A DNA stretch of 64,000 nucleotides from Desulfococcaceae bacterium (GTDB lineage Bacteria > Desulfobacterota > Desulfobacteria > Desulfobacterales > Desulfosalsimonadaceae), in NCBI GenBank assembly GCA_030145385.1, contig JAQYVU010000002.1, positions 62,001 through 126,000 on the forward strand, given 5' to 3'. The position numbers were made by a program, and so were the translations under genes. Shown here piece by piece: positions 27,756-40,026 of the stretch; positions within the stretch are counted from its first letter, which is position 1; each line of letters opens with the position of its first letter. The notes under the pieces are model-generated. The model worked only from the letters and a program-made list of their open reading frames with translations. It made no database searches and had not been told where the DNA came from.

Positions 27756-28064
27756 TTAGCTGGTGAGATTATCTATTGATTGTTTGCATGTTTTATATAT
27801 TGATCCAATTGAGGTCCAAATAACAGCAAGGGCTCCCAAAACAACTGGAACTCTGTGAGTAGCTAATTTCCCTAATTCTTTATCAGGGATAGTAGAAGCA
27901 ACAAAACCGAGGTGTAGCCCAATTACCACACCTGTACATGATAATATAATGACTACAATTTCTAAAAATTCAGGTACTTTTTTGTACCTAATAATAGCAA
28001 ATAATAAAAAACAACCACCAATCAACATACCAATATAAAGGCCAACAAGGTTCAAGTTAAGCAT
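27756..28064 (-). CDS. Unknown three-helix membrane protein partnered with the TIR protein
   Basis: A 102-residue hydrophobic protein with three helices (about 5-25, 33-56 and 71-90), the last followed by a short basic tail. No known motif. Its ATG at 28064 overlaps the TIR gene by 8 bases and has a strong AGGGGGT site inside the TIR coding end, so the two proteins are probably made together. A role as membrane partner, anchor or immunity/effector subunit of the TIR protein is inference from this coupling. Composition is AT-rich like the rest of the island. Confidence 0.7.
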   Translation of the reverse strand: MLNLNLVGLYIGMLIGGCFLLFAIIRYKKVPEFLEIVVIILSCTGVVIGLHLGFVASTIPDKELGKLATHRVPVVLGALAVIWTSIGSIYKTCKQSIDNLTS

Positions 28065-28671
28065 TATTCTTTACCCCCTTGTTAGCGTTACCAAGAACAC
28101 CACCAATTAAACCACCAATAATTGCACCACCACCACCAGGAAGAAGTAAATTACCGATTGTGGCTCCACCTATTGCAGAAGCTAAAACTTGTACAGAGTT
28201 GGTTTCAATATTCTTTTTATAATCACTAATTGCTGTATTAATTTTTTTAGCAATCTCAATTATTAATTGTTCCTGTTGGCGAGGAGGCATGGATTTTAAT
28301 GATTGACTATTTATAAATTGATAAGTTTGAAATTCATTAAGCATTTGAAATTGAAAATCATTTATCAAGACGGGAAGTATTAAAGCACCTTCAACAACTG
28401 CTTTTTGTATAAGTGGTAATTCCACAAAATTAGCAAATTGAGATGAAAAATAATCAGAGCTAACAAGAATTACAAACACCTTAGATTCATTTATTGCATT
28501 TTTGATTTGTTGTTTTAACTCACTTCCTGTCAACAATTCCTGGTCATTCCAATATTCTACTAGCCCTTGAGATTCAGCTTTGGTGAGATGAGCCTTTAGA
28601 CGTTCTGCCCATTCGGAATCCTTATGGCTGTAGCTGAGAAAAACTTTTATTCGTTCATTTTTCTTCTTCAT
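28057..28671 (-). CDS. TIR-domain protein with C-terminal glycine zipper
   Basis: A 204-residue protein. The TIR domain (about 8-140) opens with IKVFLSYSHKDSEWAERLK. The alphaC region SSDYFSSQFANFVELPL contains Glu84 at the position of the catalytic glutamate of NAD-cleaving TIRs. Residues 164-199 form a glycine-rich hydrophobic zipper (GGATIGNLLLPGGGGAIIGG), a segment that can enter membranes. Bacterial TIR proteins often act in anti-phage defence by depleting NAD. The combination with a zipper and an overlapping membrane protein gene suggests a membrane-linked effector; this is inference. The gene follows an attC-like site. Confidence 0.82.
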   Translation of the reverse strand: MKKKNERIKVFLSYSHKDSEWAERLKAHLTKAESQGLVEYWNDQELLTGSELKQQIKNAINESKVFVILVSSDYFSSQFANFVELPLIQKAVVEGALILPVLINDFQFQMLNEFQTYQFINSQSLKSMPPRQQEQLIIEIAKKINTAISDYKKNIETNSVQVLASAIGGATIGNLLLPGGGGAIIGGLIGGVLGNANKGVKNNA

Positions 28672-31530: not shown

Positions 31531-31604
31531 GCGTCAGATCTTGAACTGTGAATTACTTCAATAATCTCTCAATGTTTTAATTCACTAATCAAGGCCCGAC
31601 CCCG
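31531..31604. repeat. REP-type palindrome P3
   Basis: Third copy of the P1/P2 family: GCGTCAGATCTTGAACTGTG on the left, the same centre CTTCAATAATCTCTCAATG, and AAGGCCCGACCCCG on the right. It contains the stop codon of the HNH gene. Confidence 0.85.
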
Positions 31605-31840
31605 ATTACAAGCCAAACAGAAAGTTGTTTTTGACCTTTACTTGCGTTGCAACCACAGCAACAAAGGGCAATGTTTTCTCTGGTTATTATTTTGGCATCA
31701 TTGATAATATGCTCCCAGCTCGCAGCAGTTTTTTTAGAAATTTTTGCTGGAGTAAACTCAACACCACAATAAACACACACCTTGCCTCTTCCCCTAACTT
31801 CTTTCTCTATCCAGGCAGGTATGTTCCAGTTATTTGCCAT
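31589..31840 (-). pseudogene. HNH endonuclease, C-terminus replaced by REP element
   Basis: An 83-residue HNH protein: CVYCGVEF supplies the first zinc cysteines, WEHIINDA holds the HNH histidine and asparagine, and ALCCCGCNASKGQK the second zinc pair and final motif. HNH proteins of this type normally continue after a ..LxxWL segment. Here the frame runs from LSVWLV into palindrome P3, which supplies the last codons IGVGP and the TGA. It is therefore probably truncated, though the zinc and HNH motifs survive. Only a weak ribosome site precedes the ATG. Confidence 0.65.
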
Positions 31841-32313
31841 TCATCCGTCTCTTCATTTATATAACAATAAATTATAATGTTTCCGTTTAATTTCAAGTAC
31901 AGCAATTCTTGATAAAAAAGAAACCAGGCTGTTTAAAATTTTCTAACTGTATAACACCACAATTTGAATATCAGTCTGGAAATCGTATAATCATTATATG
32001 TACTCAGGGTTGTATTATTTTACAGCCATTTTGCTTACGAAATCTTCATATCGAGCGAATTGGGTCGATATCACGCTTTAAAAGGGTGATATGAAGAAAA
32101 AATGCTTGATATCACATCTTCCAATAGCGACCGCACAACAGAAAAATAAGCAAAGATCAATTTTTGAATTTTTCCGCCTGTTCCCGGAATATGAATTATT
32201 ACCGCAAAGTTTTTTTGAAATATAGTCGCATTGAAATGAAATTTATATCAAATTATTTCTCTAAATAAAAGAACTAATTCGAATAACAAATGATTTTAGA
32301 AAATTAAGTTTGA
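31841..32313. other. Gene-free AT-rich stretch with small hairpins
   Basis: No convincing gene. The motif GATATCAC or its complement recurs three times near 32070-32120 and can form small hairpins (CTTCATATC with GATATGAAG). Confidence 0.4.
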
Positions 32314-32519
32314 CCTAATTTGAGCGATTGTCGAGGTTGCCGCATATAGAAGGAAAATGCGTTGCCGCTATAGTCGTTTATGCGGTTGCGCATTTGACGC
32401 AGTAGATGCGGTGCGATCAGCAATCCCGGAGGGTTTTAAATTTTGAAATTTGAGACAGGTCAACATCTTTAAATAAATATTAAAACAATTTTTTCAAAAT
32501 TTAAAACGATTAACTTAGG
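32314..32519. mobile_element. MITE-like 206-bp repeat, copy B
   Basis: 206 bases from CCTAATTTGAGCG to a right end ending TTAGG. It is near-identical over its length to the 206-base copy at 34462. Terminal inverted repeats match at about 10 of 13 positions. Flanks TTTGA and CTTGA may be a worn 5-bp target duplication. It encodes nothing, so it would need a transposase supplied in trans. Confidence 0.8.
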
Positions 32520-32849
32520 CTTGAAGAAGCTTGGACTGATGGGGGACAGATCTGCATTTAAAAAATTCTTATAAGAATATAAATGGTTCATTTGTTAATC
32601 ATTATTTGATCAGGCGAAAAACCAAATCCGAATATTGAACCCTGAATAATAACAAGTGACCGCCGGGATGTTCCCCATCGCAACGCAGCCGAGAGCCGAT
32701 AGTTTCCATGTGGAGTTCCGGGGACAGTTCACACAATTCTTCATAAAATAGAAATGATCTAAAAATCAAATTGTTAAAATCTTTAATGCTCAATTCAAGA
32801 TATAATCACATTTTTGCAGATCCGTTATTCGCAGGCCGATTGCATCGGC
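32520..32849. other. Gene-free stretch with degenerate REP-like fragments
   Basis: Contains GGGGACAGATCT and CCGGGGACAGTTCACAC, which resemble ends of RAYT-associated REP elements. A short open frame on the minus strand (32602-32793) has no ribosome site. I see no real gene. Confidence 0.4.
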
Positions 32850-33770
32850 TCAAAACAGCGGAAACAGCTTCTCCAGGATGTAGCCCACTCCCAGGAGCAC
32901 CTGGGTGAACAGAATAAATTTTACGTTATCTCCCAGGGCCGGAACCAGCTTGCTCCTGTCATGATATTCTTTGGATCCCCGCATGGCCTTTACAGCCCAG
33001 GGCAGCGTAAACAAAGCGATCAGGCAATAGACCGGCATGACAACCTTTCCGGTTAAAAGGGTTGCCAGCACACACCCGATAATCCAGACATAGACCGCGA
33101 CCGTTGCCAATATGAAAAATTTTGCGGCAGCGTCCAGGCCGAATGCGACCGGGATCGTTTTCCTACCGCCCTTTCTGTCAGCCTCCACATCCGGAAACTC
33201 GTTGAGCAGGAGCAGGTTGTGCACCAGGATGCCGCTGGGAATTGAGGCAATCAGGACCATCCAGTCATATCTGCCGGCCTGGATAAAATAGAAACCCAGA
33301 ATGGGCAGAACGCCCAGCCCCACCCCCGGTGACCATTCGGGCCAGGGGGTTTTCAGGATCACCGGCGTATAAAGTACCAGACAGAGGGCGGCCACAATCA
33401 GGAGCGGCAGCAACAGCCAGCCCTTTAAGGCGATGAAAAAAAGGCCGATCAGCAGTGCGACCAGCGAGGTAACGATCCCCACCCAAAGAGCCTGGTTTAA
33501 CGAAATTTTTCCGTCAGGCACAAGCCCGCTGCCCCCGCTGAAGGGTGTCCGCTCGACATCCAGATCAATGCCGCTTTTGTAATCAAAATAATCGTTGATC
33601 GCATTAACACTGCCGTGAGTTAACATCAGACCAAAACCGGCCAGCAGGGCATACCCCAGATTGACGGGACCATCGTACCAGGCAATCGAAGTGCCGAGAA
33701 AGGCAAGCACGACGGGAAGCGAAAGGAACTGGGGTCTGGTTTCCTTGATCCACAGTAGCAGTCTATTCAT
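32850..33770 (-). CDS. UbiA-family prenyltransferase, MenA-like
   Basis: Integral membrane prenyltransferase of 306 residues, probably attaching a polyprenyl chain to 1,4-dihydroxy-2-naphthoate for menaquinone. About eight to nine helices are visible. The first Asp-rich motif is NDYFDYKSGIDLD (about 59-71) and the second is DVEADRKGGRKT. The SVNAINDYFDY context is typical of MenA and related UbiA proteins. It stands with the phosphoesterase gene between two 206-bp repeats. The exact acceptor is not certain because no other men gene is nearby. Confidence 0.85.
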   Translation of the reverse strand: MNRLLLWIKETRPQFLSLPVVLAFLGTSIAWYDGPVNLGYALLAGFGLMLTHGSVNAINDYFDYKSGIDLDVERTPFSGGSGLVPDGKISLNQALWVGIVTSLVALLIGLFFIALKGWLLLPLLIVAALCLVLYTPVILKTPWPEWSPGVGLGVLPILGFYFIQAGRYDWMVLIASIPSGILVHNLLLLNEFPDVEADRKGGRKTIPVAFGLDAAAKFFILATVAVYVWIIGCVLATLLTGKVVMPVYCLIALFTLPWAVKAMRGSKEYHDRSKLVPALGDNVKFILFTQVLLGVGYILEKLFPLF

Positions 33771-33791
33771 ACCGTCTCCCTGGATTCTTTT

Positions 33792-34430
33792 TTAAACCAT
33801 TTCAATTTCAGGTTTTTTCCCCACCCTCACCTCAATCATCATCCCCTGACCTTTCCTTGGCATACTGCAATTCACCACCGTAGTTTCACCAATTTCTGAA
33901 ATACCGGCAGCTTCATGGATATGTCCGCAGATCAATAAACAGGGCTGTTTTTTCTCAACCAGGTTTCGGACCATTTTAGAGCCCGAATGAAACCGGCCCA
34001 TGACCTGGTCTTGAAATCCCCAGGGTGGTGTGTGAACAACGAATACGGTTTTGGAATCAATTAACGGTGAGACTTTCTTCATCAGATAGTTTTCACGCAA
34101 CCCGACCCGGTTTCGAAACGGCAAAGGGATAGTTCCGGACAGGCCGGTAAAAGGGATGGATTTAATTGTTACCCTGTTCAGGTGCAATGATGTCAGATTT
34201 GAAAACCGGTTAAAATATTTTTCAATATACGCAGGATCAGAATTGCCCCGCACAGCCAGCACCGGAACAGATAAATCATTTAGAATATTAAATGTCTTTT
34301 CCGGACGAATATAATTAATGATATCCCCGGCAACCACAAGCACATCCGGCTTGTATTCATCAACAACCGAACAAATCTTTTGAAGACTTGCCGGGTCTGC
34401 ATGAATATCTGCAACTGCGTAAATCTGCAT
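33792..34430 (-). CDS. Metallophosphoesterase, calcineurin-like
   Basis: A 212-residue binuclear metal phosphoesterase. Ligand motifs are in order: VADIHADP (D and H), VVAGDIIN (bridging D), AVRGNSDP (N), VVHTPPWG (H) and CGHIHEAAG (H-x-H). The size fits the YfcE/MJ0936-like single-domain group. The substrate is unknown; phosphodiesters are usual. It lies 21 bases upstream of the prenyltransferase, same strand. Confidence 0.88.
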   Translation of the reverse strand: MQIYAVADIHADPASLQKICSVVDEYKPDVLVVAGDIINYIRPEKTFNILNDLSVPVLAVRGNSDPAYIEKYFNRFSNLTSLHLNRVTIKSIPFTGLSGTIPLPFRNRVGLRENYLMKKVSPLIDSKTVFVVHTPPWGFQDQVMGRFHSGSKMVRNLVEKKQPCLLICGHIHEAAGISEIGETTVVNCSMPRKGQGMMIEVRVGKKPEIEMV

Positions 34431-34461
34431 ATCTCTCTCATTCGACTAAAATTATGTCAAT

Positions 34462-34667
34462 CCTAAGTTGAGCGATTATCGAGGTTGCCGCATATACAAG
34501 AAAAATGCGTTGCCGCTATAGTCGTTTATGCGGTTGCGCATTTGACGCAGCAGATGAGGTGAGATCGGCAATCCCGTCGGGTTTAAAATTTTGAAAATTG
34601 AAATAGATCAACATCCTTAAATAAATATAAAACAATTTTTTTTTAAATTTAAAACGCTCAATTTAGG
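34462..34667. mobile_element. MITE-like 206-bp repeat, copy C, with target duplication
   Basis: 206 bases with 13-base terminal inverted repeats CCTAAGTTGAGCG and CGCTCAATTTAGG (one mismatch). It is flanked by TCAAT directly on both sides, a clear 5-bp target duplication. It has the same length and near-identical sequence as copy B in the same orientation. The right end supplies the stop codon of the phosphoglycerate mutase gene. Confidence 0.88.
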
Positions 34668-35964
34668 TCAATGTAAACGGCGGGTAATCATCCGGAATAA
34701 AAGCTCTCACTTCATCTCCCAGCTGATGCGTGGCCAGCACGGATTGATCGGCAAAATTAAGCGCCATCTGCATCAGTTCCGGCCCTCTCAGCAGGCCGAG
34801 GCACCCGGATGCCGCACTGATCTCATTAAATATTTTCACATGATCACGACGAATGTTCGGGCCGGCAATGAGCACGGGCACGGTTTCACCGGAATGGATC
34901 AACCCTGATTTTCCCGGATTGGAGCCACTGGGGGTTGAATGGTCGCCGGTGACAATCACCATGACATTTTTGCGTTGTTCCACTATACCCACAAGTTCTC
35001 CCAGGCCGCTGTCAAGCGCCTCAAGCGCCTGCTTTTTTAACATGGGGTTACCCTTATGGGAAATTTCATCCGGCACCTTTGTATGAACATGGAAAAACTC
35101 ATGTTCCGGATCATCCAAAGCCAGCCGGATTCGTTCTTCTAAATCTTGACCCGGATTTTTACTGTCCTTTACCCGAAAAAAATCAAAGCCCAGTTCATGG
35201 GCCAGACCTTCGTAAACCGTTGGAGATGCGATCATCATGGGCTTTAATCCCCAGACAGCTTCAAACGGTTTCAGCGTAACCCGCCGCCCGCATCGCTGGG
35301 TCACCAGAAAATTGGCTTTTTTTCCTAACACCTGATTGCCGGATAACTGCTGATGGCAGTTAGCCAGATACCGATTTAACGCATCTGCGGTTTGTTTTGC
35401 CCGCACCGGTTCCGGGTTGTTTTTCAAAGGCAGAATACGTGCGATTTTTTTGCCGCAGGTAATCGGATCGGAATCTGAAATATACGGGGAAACGTCTCCG
35501 CTGATAACAATAATTCCGTCATTGCGCCGGGTCTGGTGCAGCTTGAATCTTATGCCCCCTTCTTCATAGAACTCAACCGCCTGAAACAATTTGCTTAAAT
35601 CTTCTTTTGATCCCGCAATATCATCCCGGCCTTGATCTAAAACAAAGATACCATCCTCAATACGAACCCCTGAAAAATGTGCCAGAGCTAAAACATCGTT
35701 ATCATTAAAGGGGACTTTCTCGCCCACAGCCTCTAGCAGCCCTCTGCCGGGAAAATTTTCCCGGTCATATCCGAAAAGCAGAAAATGGGCCATTTCACTG
35801 GGCAGGCATTCCCCAGGAGTCGATGCATGAAACATCCCCGTGCTTCCGATTTCCGCCAAGCGATCCATATTCGGCGTCTTCGCAGCTTCAAGAGGCGTCT
35901 GGTGGTTGAGAACATCGTAGGAGCGGTCGCCAAAACCATCCAGCAAGACTAAGATAATTTTCAT
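34663..35964 (-). CDS. apgM: 2,3-bisphosphoglycerate-independent phosphoglycerate mutase, archaeal type
   Basis: Interconverts 3- and 2-phosphoglycerate in glycolysis/gluconeogenesis; alkaline phosphatase superfamily. There are 433 residues. Metal-binding Asp sits in LVLLDGFGDRS near the start, the phospho-acceptor Ser in LPSEMAHFLLFGY, and the late metal ligands in HVHTKVPDEISHKGN and TGDHSTPS. The stop TAA and the last residues come from the target duplication and the end of repeat copy C, so the native C-terminus may have been slightly different. ATGA overlap with the gene upstream. A relative acting on other phosphates is possible. Confidence 0.87.
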   Translation of the reverse strand: MKIILVLLDGFGDRSYDVLNHQTPLEAAKTPNMDRLAEIGSTGMFHASTPGECLPSEMAHFLLFGYDRENFPGRGLLEAVGEKVPFNDNDVLALAHFSGVRIEDGIFVLDQGRDDIAGSKEDLSKLFQAVEFYEEGGIRFKLHQTRRNDGIIVISGDVSPYISDSDPITCGKKIARILPLKNNPEPVRAKQTADALNRYLANCHQQLSGNQVLGKKANFLVTQRCGRRVTLKPFEAVWGLKPMMIASPTVYEGLAHELGFDFFRVKDSKNPGQDLEERIRLALDDPEHEFFHVHTKVPDEISHKGNPMLKKQALEALDSGLGELVGIVEQRKNVMVIVTGDHSTPSGSNPGKSGLIHSGETVPVLIAGPNIRRDHVKIFNEISAASGCLGLLRGPELMQMALNFADQSVLATHQLGDEVRAFIPDDYPPFTLT

Positions 35965-37990: not shown

Positions 37991-37997
37991 CCAGAAA

Positions 37998-38104
37998 TGA
38001 GAAATTTTGTTCAAGTTCAAGGAAGGCGAAAATTTTAACCGGAGACATACGGAGTTGTATTTCGAGGATTAAAATTTGAGCCTGACGCAGAAATTGGGCA
38101 AAAT
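37998..38104 (+). repeat. Inverted repeat flanking the SDR gene, left copy
   Basis: About 100 bases sharing GGCGAAAATTTTAACCGGAG and GAGGATTAAAATTTGAGCC with the inverse copy at 38917-39018. The unit is itself a hairpin (AAATTTTAACC with GGATTAAAATTT). It lies directly downstream of the SDR stop. Confidence 0.8.
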
Positions 38105-38127
38105 AGCCATTTCAAGATGAATACAAA

Positions 38128-39060: not shown

Positions 39061-40026
39061 CTATTTCATTATGGCTGATTTGATTTTTTCGATGCGCCCC
39101 GGCAGGTTTTTGTCTTTTGCCATCTGCTGTTTCATACGGACAATCGCACTGCTCACGGAGCTGTATCCAGCCATTGAAAATTCATTTCCGATAGCTTCAA
39201 GGCTGTCTTTTCTCAATATGCGTGTCAAATAAATGGCAACACCCCTGGGTTCATTAAAACTCCCCCGCCTTGATTTCATCAGCTCTTTTTCATCCACCCG
39301 GTACTCTCTTGAAACAGCGTCTTTAATCAGGCCCACGTCCGGTGCCAGAATTGCTGAATCCGGTACCTGCCGATGCGATTTGCCGACATAAAATTCATTG
39401 CGAACCCATTTAATAAAACTGTTTTCACCTAAAATCGCCGGAAATTTTTTCATGGAAAATACCCGGAGGATATCCTCGTTGATATTTTCTAGCATGGCTT
39501 GCCTGTAAGCCTTCACACTGCCCCGCCGAATATCTGAAATCAATGAAAAAATTATTTTTTTATTGAGCCAGTCCCATTTTTTTGCCCTGGATACATAGCC
39601 GGAATGACTGCTCCAGGGGTAACGGTCAATCTGATCAACAATTTTTTCTTTTTTTGGGTATTGATGAATATATTTTACCATTTCCAAAAGATATTCACCC
39701 TCTTCGACCAGAATACTCTTGAATCGTCCTCTGAACAAGGGGCCGTCGAAATTATGCGCCCGGTTATAACGCTGGGTATAGATCCCGTTAATATGGCGCA
39801 TACTCCTGGAAAGGTTGCTTTCCGGCGTCTGGACTAGCATATGATACTGGTTGGGCATCAGGCAATATGCGCTGATACCGATATTCCACAAAGAGACGGA
39901 TTCTTCAAGTAAATCGACAAAGACCTGATAGTCATACTTATCGACAAACACGATGTCTCCATGCCGTCCCCGGTTCGTCACATAATACCAAGCATCCGGA
40001 AATTCTATTCTTAAGGGCCTGCTCAT
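39061..40026 (-). CDS. RAYT-type Y1 transposase (TnpA-REP)
   Basis: A 321-residue member of the REP-associated tyrosine transposases, related to IS200/IS605 TnpA. The N-terminal MSRPLRIEFPDAWYYVTNRG is characteristic. The catalytic HuH-like motif reads YHMLVQT (in MPNQYHMLVQTP), and the tyrosine lies in YIHQYPKKEKI. The C-terminal part (about 230-310) carries a DnaA-type helix-turn-helix (YLTRILRKDSLEAIGNEFSM). RAYTs move short palindromes rather than themselves. It may be the source of the REP-like elements in the island; GGGGTC-type ends lie just upstream at about 40069-40080. Confidence 0.9.
   Translation of the reverse strand: MSRPLRIEFPDAWYYVTNRGRHGDIVFVDKYDYQVFVDLLEESVSLWNIGISAYCLMPNQYHMLVQTPESNLSRSMRHINGIYTQRYNRAHNFDGPLFRGRFKSILVEEGEYLLEMVKYIHQYPKKEKIVDQIDRYPWSSHSGYVSRAKKWDWLNKKIIFSLISDIRRGSVKAYRQAMLENINEDILRVFSMKKFPAILGENSFIKWVRNEFYVGKSHRQVPDSAILAPDVGLIKDAVSREYRVDEKELMKSRRGSFNEPRGVAIYLTRILRKDSLEAIGNEFSMAGYSSVSSAIVRMKQQMAKDKNLPGRIEKIKSAIMK

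Follow-up and report, generated by a model that had tools for sequence, protein, structure and literature searches.

The 206-bp repeat at positions 34462-34667 of the window, the 64,000-nucleotide stretch of a Desulfococcaceae genome analysed here, is a non-autonomous transposon. Our preferred reading, to which we assign a probability of roughly 0.7, is that this unit is an IS1380-mobilised MITE carrying a structured, RNA-like module, which often persists once the element has inserted. The original prediction had proposed a MITE-like, non-autonomous repeat with a target duplication, and each of these points found support, including in both of the checks that it had suggested. What it overlooked is the nature of the left arm, a structure that covaries, is strand-specific and turns up under other ends, or with none, as well. 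The features of the window are listed below, with copies A and B denoting the two full-length elements, arm 1 the left arm, arm 2 the right arm, and bit scores taken from a covariance model of arm 1 (R1; 100 positions, 36 pairs).

34462..34667, + strand: copy B, 206-bp non-autonomous IS1380-type element, the strand being that on which the left arm comes first
34457..34461, no strand: target duplication TCAAT left of copy B, from the sequence
34668..34672, no strand: target duplication TCAAT right of copy B, from the sequence
34462..34474, + strand: left inverted end CCTAAGTTGAGCG of copy B, from the sequence and the end-motif search
34655..34667, - strand: right inverted end of copy B, CCTAAATTGAGCG on the - strand
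34474..34573, + strand: arm 1, the structured module; 96.6 bits on the + strand, 26.0 on the - strand
34573..34581, + strand: small hairpin CCCGTCGGG; family consensus CCCGnAGGG
34582..34654, no strand: arm 2, AT-rich inverted repeat folding without strand preference
32314..32519, + strand: copy A, 206 bp, 89% identical to copy B, with an imperfect duplication
32326..32425, + strand: arm 1 of copy A, 94.4 bits
26910..27010, - strand: bare arm-1 module lacking recognisable inverted ends, 103.5 bits
53618..53718, - strand: older copy with the arm-1 module, a short right arm and a degenerate right end, 77.5 bits

Copies A and B lie where they had been placed and are both exactly 206 bp long, but the description of them as near-identical did not survive alignment, as they share 89% identity over 206 bp and 86% over 220 nt. 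Copy B is bounded by CCTAAGTTGAGCG and CGCTCAATTTAGG, which form 13-bp inverted repeats with one mismatch between flanking TCAAT sequences just as predicted, and it holds no internal ORF of 60 aa or more, in agreement with the claim that it lacks coding capacity. The ends of copy A have diverged (CCTAATTTGAGCG / CGATTAACTTAGG), and its duplication, TTTGA/CTTGA, matches at 4 of 5 bases. The ORF at 34663-35964 on the - strand, which we take to be a phosphoglycerate-mutase-like gene, overlaps copy B solely by the last 5 bases of the element. Its stop codon (34663-34665) sits in the terminal CCTAA of copy B, so that the insertion ends this ORF without a long extension. Two - strand ORFs close to the repeats, at 28057-28671 and 31589-31840, presumably encode a TIR/SEFIR-like protein (FLSYSHKDSEWAERLKAHL) and a small HNH-like protein, respectively, and are perhaps part of a defence island. 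A 321-aa ORF at 39061-40026 on the - strand reads like a RAYT-type Y1 transposase.

A search of the host genome (G000; 5.24 Mb in 209 contigs, assembly 97% complete) with the 206-bp unit, as the original prediction had proposed, found 41 matches, 10 of which span positions 1-206 and share one end type, some with a few mismatches. The end motif, allowing up to 1 mismatch, occurs 69 times in this genome versus 6 times for the reversed control. Matches to the element were present in 26 of 60 relatives and in 11 of 34 genera, and the named contigs among the left-end matches listed (80 of at least 117) were MAGs of Desulfobacterales, Desulfobacteraceae, Desulfococcus or Deltaproteobacteria. From 135 end pairs spaced 180-235 bp apart in the host and its relatives, we removed 24 that were duplicates or lacked interior similarity, leaving 111 distinct full-length elements. 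An exact 5-bp target duplication flanks 76 of these 111 copies versus 3.2% for shuffled flanks, and 19 further copies match at 4 of 5 bases. Only 5 bp stands out as a duplication length, and the duplicated sequence is mostly TNNNA (T at the first base in 69 and A at the fifth in 63 of the 76). Nor is the sequence fixed in related genomes without empty sites, since of the four same-genus genomes in which the copy B locus aligned on both flanks, three (G003, G004 and G010) are empty and the fourth carries unrelated DNA of about the same length as the element. The exact duplications and the empty sites together identify the 206-bp unit as transposable. It is short and multi-copy, has inverted ends but no transposase gene, and resembles an autonomous IS only in the first 13 bp or slightly more of its ends, all as in a type II MITE. 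In G009, the locus orthologous to copy B (L244, about 630-834) is occupied by a different sequence of about 205 bp that contains CCACAGAG / CTCTGTGG repeats.

Exact 5-bp duplications also flank elements that have these ends but other lengths, from a scar of 27 bp up to 370 bp, the longest having another repeat nested in arm 2; a 542-bp end pair comprised two copies around a spacer and was excluded as a single element. The shortest (L289, L294, L295, L297, L299 and L302, in G021 and G020) are scars of 27-64 bp with exact 5-bp duplications and scarcely more than two inverted ends, and their sequences suggest internal deletion between short direct repeats. In L172, L146 and L223, a hairpin repeat rich in GTAAAAAGTC / GACTTTTTACG, whose interior also has a CAAGGCG..CAACGCAG-like motif, is nested inside arm 2.

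By its matching ends and duplication length, the partner of the MITE appears to be the IS1380 family. Searching 116 relatives with PF13701 (IS1380-family transposase) gave matches in 35, with 22 over the cut-off, and returned 30 loci, three of which (L310, L312 and L313) are bounded by the MITE's ends. L310 is 1733 bp long, with the duplication ATAAT and 2 mismatches in its right end, and three of three proteins exceeded the NCBIfam NF033539 (IS1380 family transposase) cut-off. When the L312 protein was then used as the query against 389 genomes of the order, 26 loci were found in 19 genomes, and the MITE end type, with up to 2 mismatches, flanks both sides of five of them: L424, L425, L426, L434 and L444, the places L424, L426 and L434 being L312, L310 and L313 of the first search. 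Exact duplications surround L426 (ATAAT) and L444 (TTATA), which are thus real IS1380 elements with these ends and a 5-bp duplication, and are lacking at L424, L425 and L434. G714 has four copies whose ends are related (CCTAAACGAGGCG/CCTAAAATACGCG) and which are all flanked by exact duplications (CACTA, TATAA, TAAAT, TATTT). L427 and L430 have CCTAA-type ends with no duplication, and 15 of the 26 loci, many of which are gene fragments, yielded no end pair in this test. The published IS1380 member IS1247 is reported to make 5-bp duplications (PMC3281130).

The full-length transposon with the same ends that the original prediction called for was therefore found in the IS1380 family elsewhere in the Desulfobacterales, but not in the host genome. 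No PF13701 match occurs in G000, no L312-type transposase was detected at E<=1e-20 in the host or in 10 other genomes of the genus, and within the genus PF13701 matched only G005 and G008, both below the cut-off. We rejected an autonomous copy in the host, given the lack of a PF13701 match and of a long end pair around a transposase among the matches inspected. Also rejected were L285, a 2122-bp end pair in G021 in which two MITEs flank ordinary cell genes, and L286, whose ORF list contains no transposase; L287 and L288 were inspected by their ends alone. With the assembly 97% complete in 209 contigs, an unassembled IS1380 copy is possible. In genomes with other MITE families, an IS1380 match is co-resident in 9 of 18, exceeding the cut-off in 3. 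Ends matching those of MITEs (CCCGGATTATGC) adjoin IS1380 fragments in G356 and G180 (L455, L461 and L462), which is suggestive of a link between IS1380 and these MITEs. The IS ends in G256 and G474 (CCTGAATCCGTGA, CCTGAATTTTGCA) are unlike the element ends seen there.

The interior of the element was analysed in an alignment (A1) of thirty diverse full-length copies, which fold into a closing stem made of the inverted ends, a long left arm, the CCCGnAGGG hairpin and an AT-rich right arm. Paired cells make up 94.5% of this alignment, versus 88.3% in shuffled and at most 45.4% in slid controls, although the structure was derived from the same sequences, so that the slid control favours it. Two-sided changes occur at 23 of 63 pairs versus 11.8 in shuffles, with 0 of 500 shuffles reaching the observed value; relatedness can raise both of the measures compared with shuffles. 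On the strand that places arm 1 first, 16 cluster consensuses contain 75 G-U pairs and 4 A-C mismatches. The 95 sequences in clusters of at least 4 copies keep this bias in the one-sided changes that more than one copy carries (G-U 18 versus A-C 3; p=0.0015), whereas the bias of private changes is not significant (40 versus 27; p=0.14); matching transitions at unpaired positions gave 38:27 shared and 47:40 private. Because shared changes are biased and private ones not significantly so, new copies seem to decay nearly freely while persisting lineages retain the fold of one strand.

Folding stability pointed to the same strand. The arm-1-first strand gives arm 1 the more stable fold in every one of 104 MITEs and 67 module copies from the genus, and in 24 of 25 distant relatives, but arm 2 in 42 of 104; the copies are related and these counts are therefore non-independent trials, for which distant families with different stem sequences provide the best control. 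Model-fitted alignments, which are biased towards the structure, contain 321 G-U versus 34 A-C pairs in the genus set and 79 versus 43 in the distant set, where 33 of the 43 A-C pairs fall in three scarcely pairing columns. The internal loop consensus, AgATgCnaGgcg / aACncaGcAGAT, is conserved though stem sequences differ. These findings establish that the left arm, about 100 nt long, covaries, folds on one strand and is not filler. The module looks like a structured RNA, and in our judgement RNA is considerably likelier than single-stranded DNA as the folded strand. Rfam 15 gave no hit at E<=1 for window positions 32000-35000 and three hits among 8 other loci, all far below the gathering score, so that no known structured RNA family was recognised at that score.

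Model R1 also located the module beyond these ends. The host genome contains 42 places at E<=4.7e-10, of which 10 are full-length elements, and the seven best-scoring copies lack full inverted ends. Among 395 sampled Desulfobacterota genomes, 24 have the module at E<=1e-3, a patchy distribution in the phylum. Since the end search picks the best of many pairs, we used only the 8 of its 28 rows in which a module copy lies within a similarly organised element flanked by an exact 5-bp duplication; the ends are of other types in five of these eight, for example CCTAAATCCTGC (L341) and CCCGGATTATGC (L342, L349 and L351). The interior of IS1380 elements was rejected as the source of arm 1, as R1 matched none of the 30 PF13701 loci. 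Hairpins of about 110 bp that share the internal loop but lack the second arm (L377, L380, L345, L347 and L350), most with GTAAGCG..CGCTTAC ends and none with a clear target duplication that we could see, are possibly a second vehicle for the module. The window has one further, weak R1 match at 37995-38112 on the + strand (22.3 bits, E=0.0016), with a CAAGGAAG / CTGACGCAG loop and other stems; a similar sequence is present in G058 (L353).

Flank comparison of bare modules identified 11 orthologous pairs at 7 loci, at which the module persists alone while most flanks have diverged more. Core identity is 77-97%, and the 50-nt flanks are 39-96% identical on the left and 53-88% on the right; random controls gave 51% for flanks and 77% for cores, so that the 77% core of L018/L389 is no higher than random core pairs. 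In L386/L411 and L020/L391 the flanks are well kept too. The clearest pair, between G000 and G003, has a module 97% identical beside neighbouring DNA that is 83% identical. We omitted L085/L404 from the pair table as different insertions. In nine contrasts, two of them drawing on a sequence already used, changes between orthologues comprise 21 G-U versus 7 A-C (p=0.013), 12 losses of a standard pair to mismatches other than A-C, and 6 two-sided compensations. Remnants of the left inverted end were recognised by eye in many bare modules, which were found by core match alone, so that absence of arm 2 is not itself a finding.

The full-length copies sit near randomly with respect to genes in both orientation and side. 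After setting aside 4 of the 111 that overlap an ORF and 11 that lack a neighbour, 96 intergenic copies remained, with the left gene reading in sense into 47 and the right gene antisense into 38, which does not agree with a simple cis-acting mRNA element; a role as a cis-acting element of neighbouring genes was rejected. Of 67 bare modules, 38 contexts were taken, and 34 lie between genes on both sides without overlapping any, with orthologues included and the contexts thus partly non-independent. The gene to the right is antisense to the folding strand, and so reads towards the module, in 23 of these 34; its stop codon is 1-14 nt away in 19 of the 23. Genes reading in from the left come that near in 0 of 15, the nearest being at 18 nt. 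The four dropped contexts include L416 and L029, each 10 nt from such a right-side stop, and L402, where a 95-aa ORF on the left ends 2 nt away. The near-random orientation together with the frequent antisense position argues against a simple leader or 3' UTR role.

Three other explanations have to be weighed. An ordinary IS1380 MITE could have palindromic arms that are functionless filler, with covariation arising from template-switch correction of quasi-palindromes and shared ancestry. Stem-loop MITEs are indeed described as common (PMC10969869), the ends and duplications are ordinary, and private mutations have no significant strand bias. The spread of element sizes behind identical ends further implies that interiors vary or are lost, and losses after insertion would look alike. 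Template switching, as we reason, would favour neither strand, yet the subfamily-level G-U:A-C ratio is 75:4, and the 104/104 strand bias of arm 1 is not matched by the equally palindromic arm 2. An unpaired loop that is conserved and a module that outlasts most of its flanks at orthologous sites also count against this explanation, which we consider improbable. Alternatively, the module may be a small mobile element or sRNA gene in its own right that was captured by an IS1380 MITE, with the end-less copies being its native form. The best-scoring host copies without full inverted ends would fit such an origin, as would the ~110-bp form with its GTAAGCG..CGCTTAC-like ends and single arm, and IS1380 elements are described as acquiring adjacent DNA by misread ends (PMC9330008). 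Many copies without arm 2 nevertheless retain, by eye, remnants of the left CCTAARTTGAGCG end and resemble worn MITEs, and inspection showed no target duplication around the bare module. We regard capture as doubtful.

The folded strand might also be single-stranded DNA that a DNA-binding enzyme reads in replication or transfer, as attC sites or REP hairpins are read. Integron attC sites have RYYYAAC/GTTRRRY boxes in an integrase context, and REP/RAYT (Y1) elements are short hairpins moved by a Y1 transposase without target duplication. Such a substrate would be strand-specific and would retain structure while stem sequence remained free, near-random orientation to genes and the lack of a known promoter would be natural, and the window itself contains a presumed RAYT-like Y1 transposase gene at 39061-40026. 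The full 206-bp unit, however, has 5-bp duplications and inverted ends and in this differs from REP/RAYT elements; we know of no Y1 or integron system that makes 5-bp duplications with inverted ends. Copies of the module also stay in place at orthologous sites. We judge this explanation unlikely.

In the IS1380-mobilised MITE that we favour, a type II MITE would be moved in trans by an IS1380-family (DDE) transposase, which probably recognises the CCTAARTTGAGCG ends and inserts the element by a 5-bp staggered cut at TNNNA. This transposase may come from another lineage or from an unassembled copy. The left arm, a conserved one-strand module found also inside other inverted ends, makes it hard to see the 206-bp unit as a mere deletion derivative of an IS1380 element. 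The ~100-nt left-arm module is a long one-strand hairpin broken by a conserved internal loop, and it could have been gained when an IS1380 element misread an end and carried adjacent DNA, as has been described for IS1380 elements (PMC9330008). After insertion, the right arm and ends decay or vanish while the module often stays in place between species, as seen at the 7 loci. The module would be transcribed as an RNA hairpin whose internal loop is read by a factor common in the phylum, and the MITE would persist by placing a tolerated or useful element beside genes.

A broader version of this idea, which we put forward tentatively and at less than even odds, is that mobile structured RNAs circulate in one phylum: an RNA of ~100 nt with the loop AUACAAGG / GACGCAGUAGAU, carried in IS1380-type MITEs whose ends were swapped between clades, would have been seeded beside dozens of genes and domesticated as the transposon eroded. 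If so, one transposon family supplied many genes with the same RNA element. MITEs are often regarded as passive deletion derivatives; here, one MITE arm occurs under several end sets, is selected on one strand and often outlasts the transposon. Should the module be RNA, it would provide a concrete case of bacterial RNA elements traceable to transposition, in which the transposase family is named and both empty sites and orthologues are at hand. The analysis also gives an IS1380 partner to a repeat family that is abundant in Desulfobacterales.

The matches listed in literature searches, which paired MITEs with Desulfobacter or Desulfobacterota and with IS1380, included no description of this family and no account of IS1380-derived MITEs in Desulfobacterales; Desulf, Geobacter and delta have no occurrence in PMC2267715. 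The Chunjie MITE of Geobacter uraniireducens is similar in being about 200 bp long, mostly intergenic and accompanied by many partial, end-less copies (PMC10969869), and differs, as compared by description only, in that the relevant passages of that paper make no mention of a conserved structured module. QMITE1 and QMITE2 of Coxiella burnetii are also MITEs, with truncated copies that resemble repetitive extragenic palindromes; QMITE2 makes 7-9-bp duplications, and one-strand fold conservation goes unmentioned in the same passages (PMC10969869). The MRSC motifs, such as MRSC-65-2, are like the module in that they covary, have many copies in inconsistent orientation to genes and are undecided between RNA and DNA, but MRSC-65-2 is one long stem with UYCCGG repeats (PMC11109978). 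That study reports 250 mobile/repeat (MRSC) motifs, and the arm-1 module may be among them. Compared with IS1380 elements of 1.7-1.9 kb, the MITE has 206 bp and no transposase, and its arm-1 module is absent from the IS1380 copies seen (0/30 PF13701 loci with R1). With the IS1380 family (NF033539, PF13701; ISEcp1, ISPme1, IS1247) it shares CC-starting CCTAARTTGAGCG-type ends and a 5-bp duplication.
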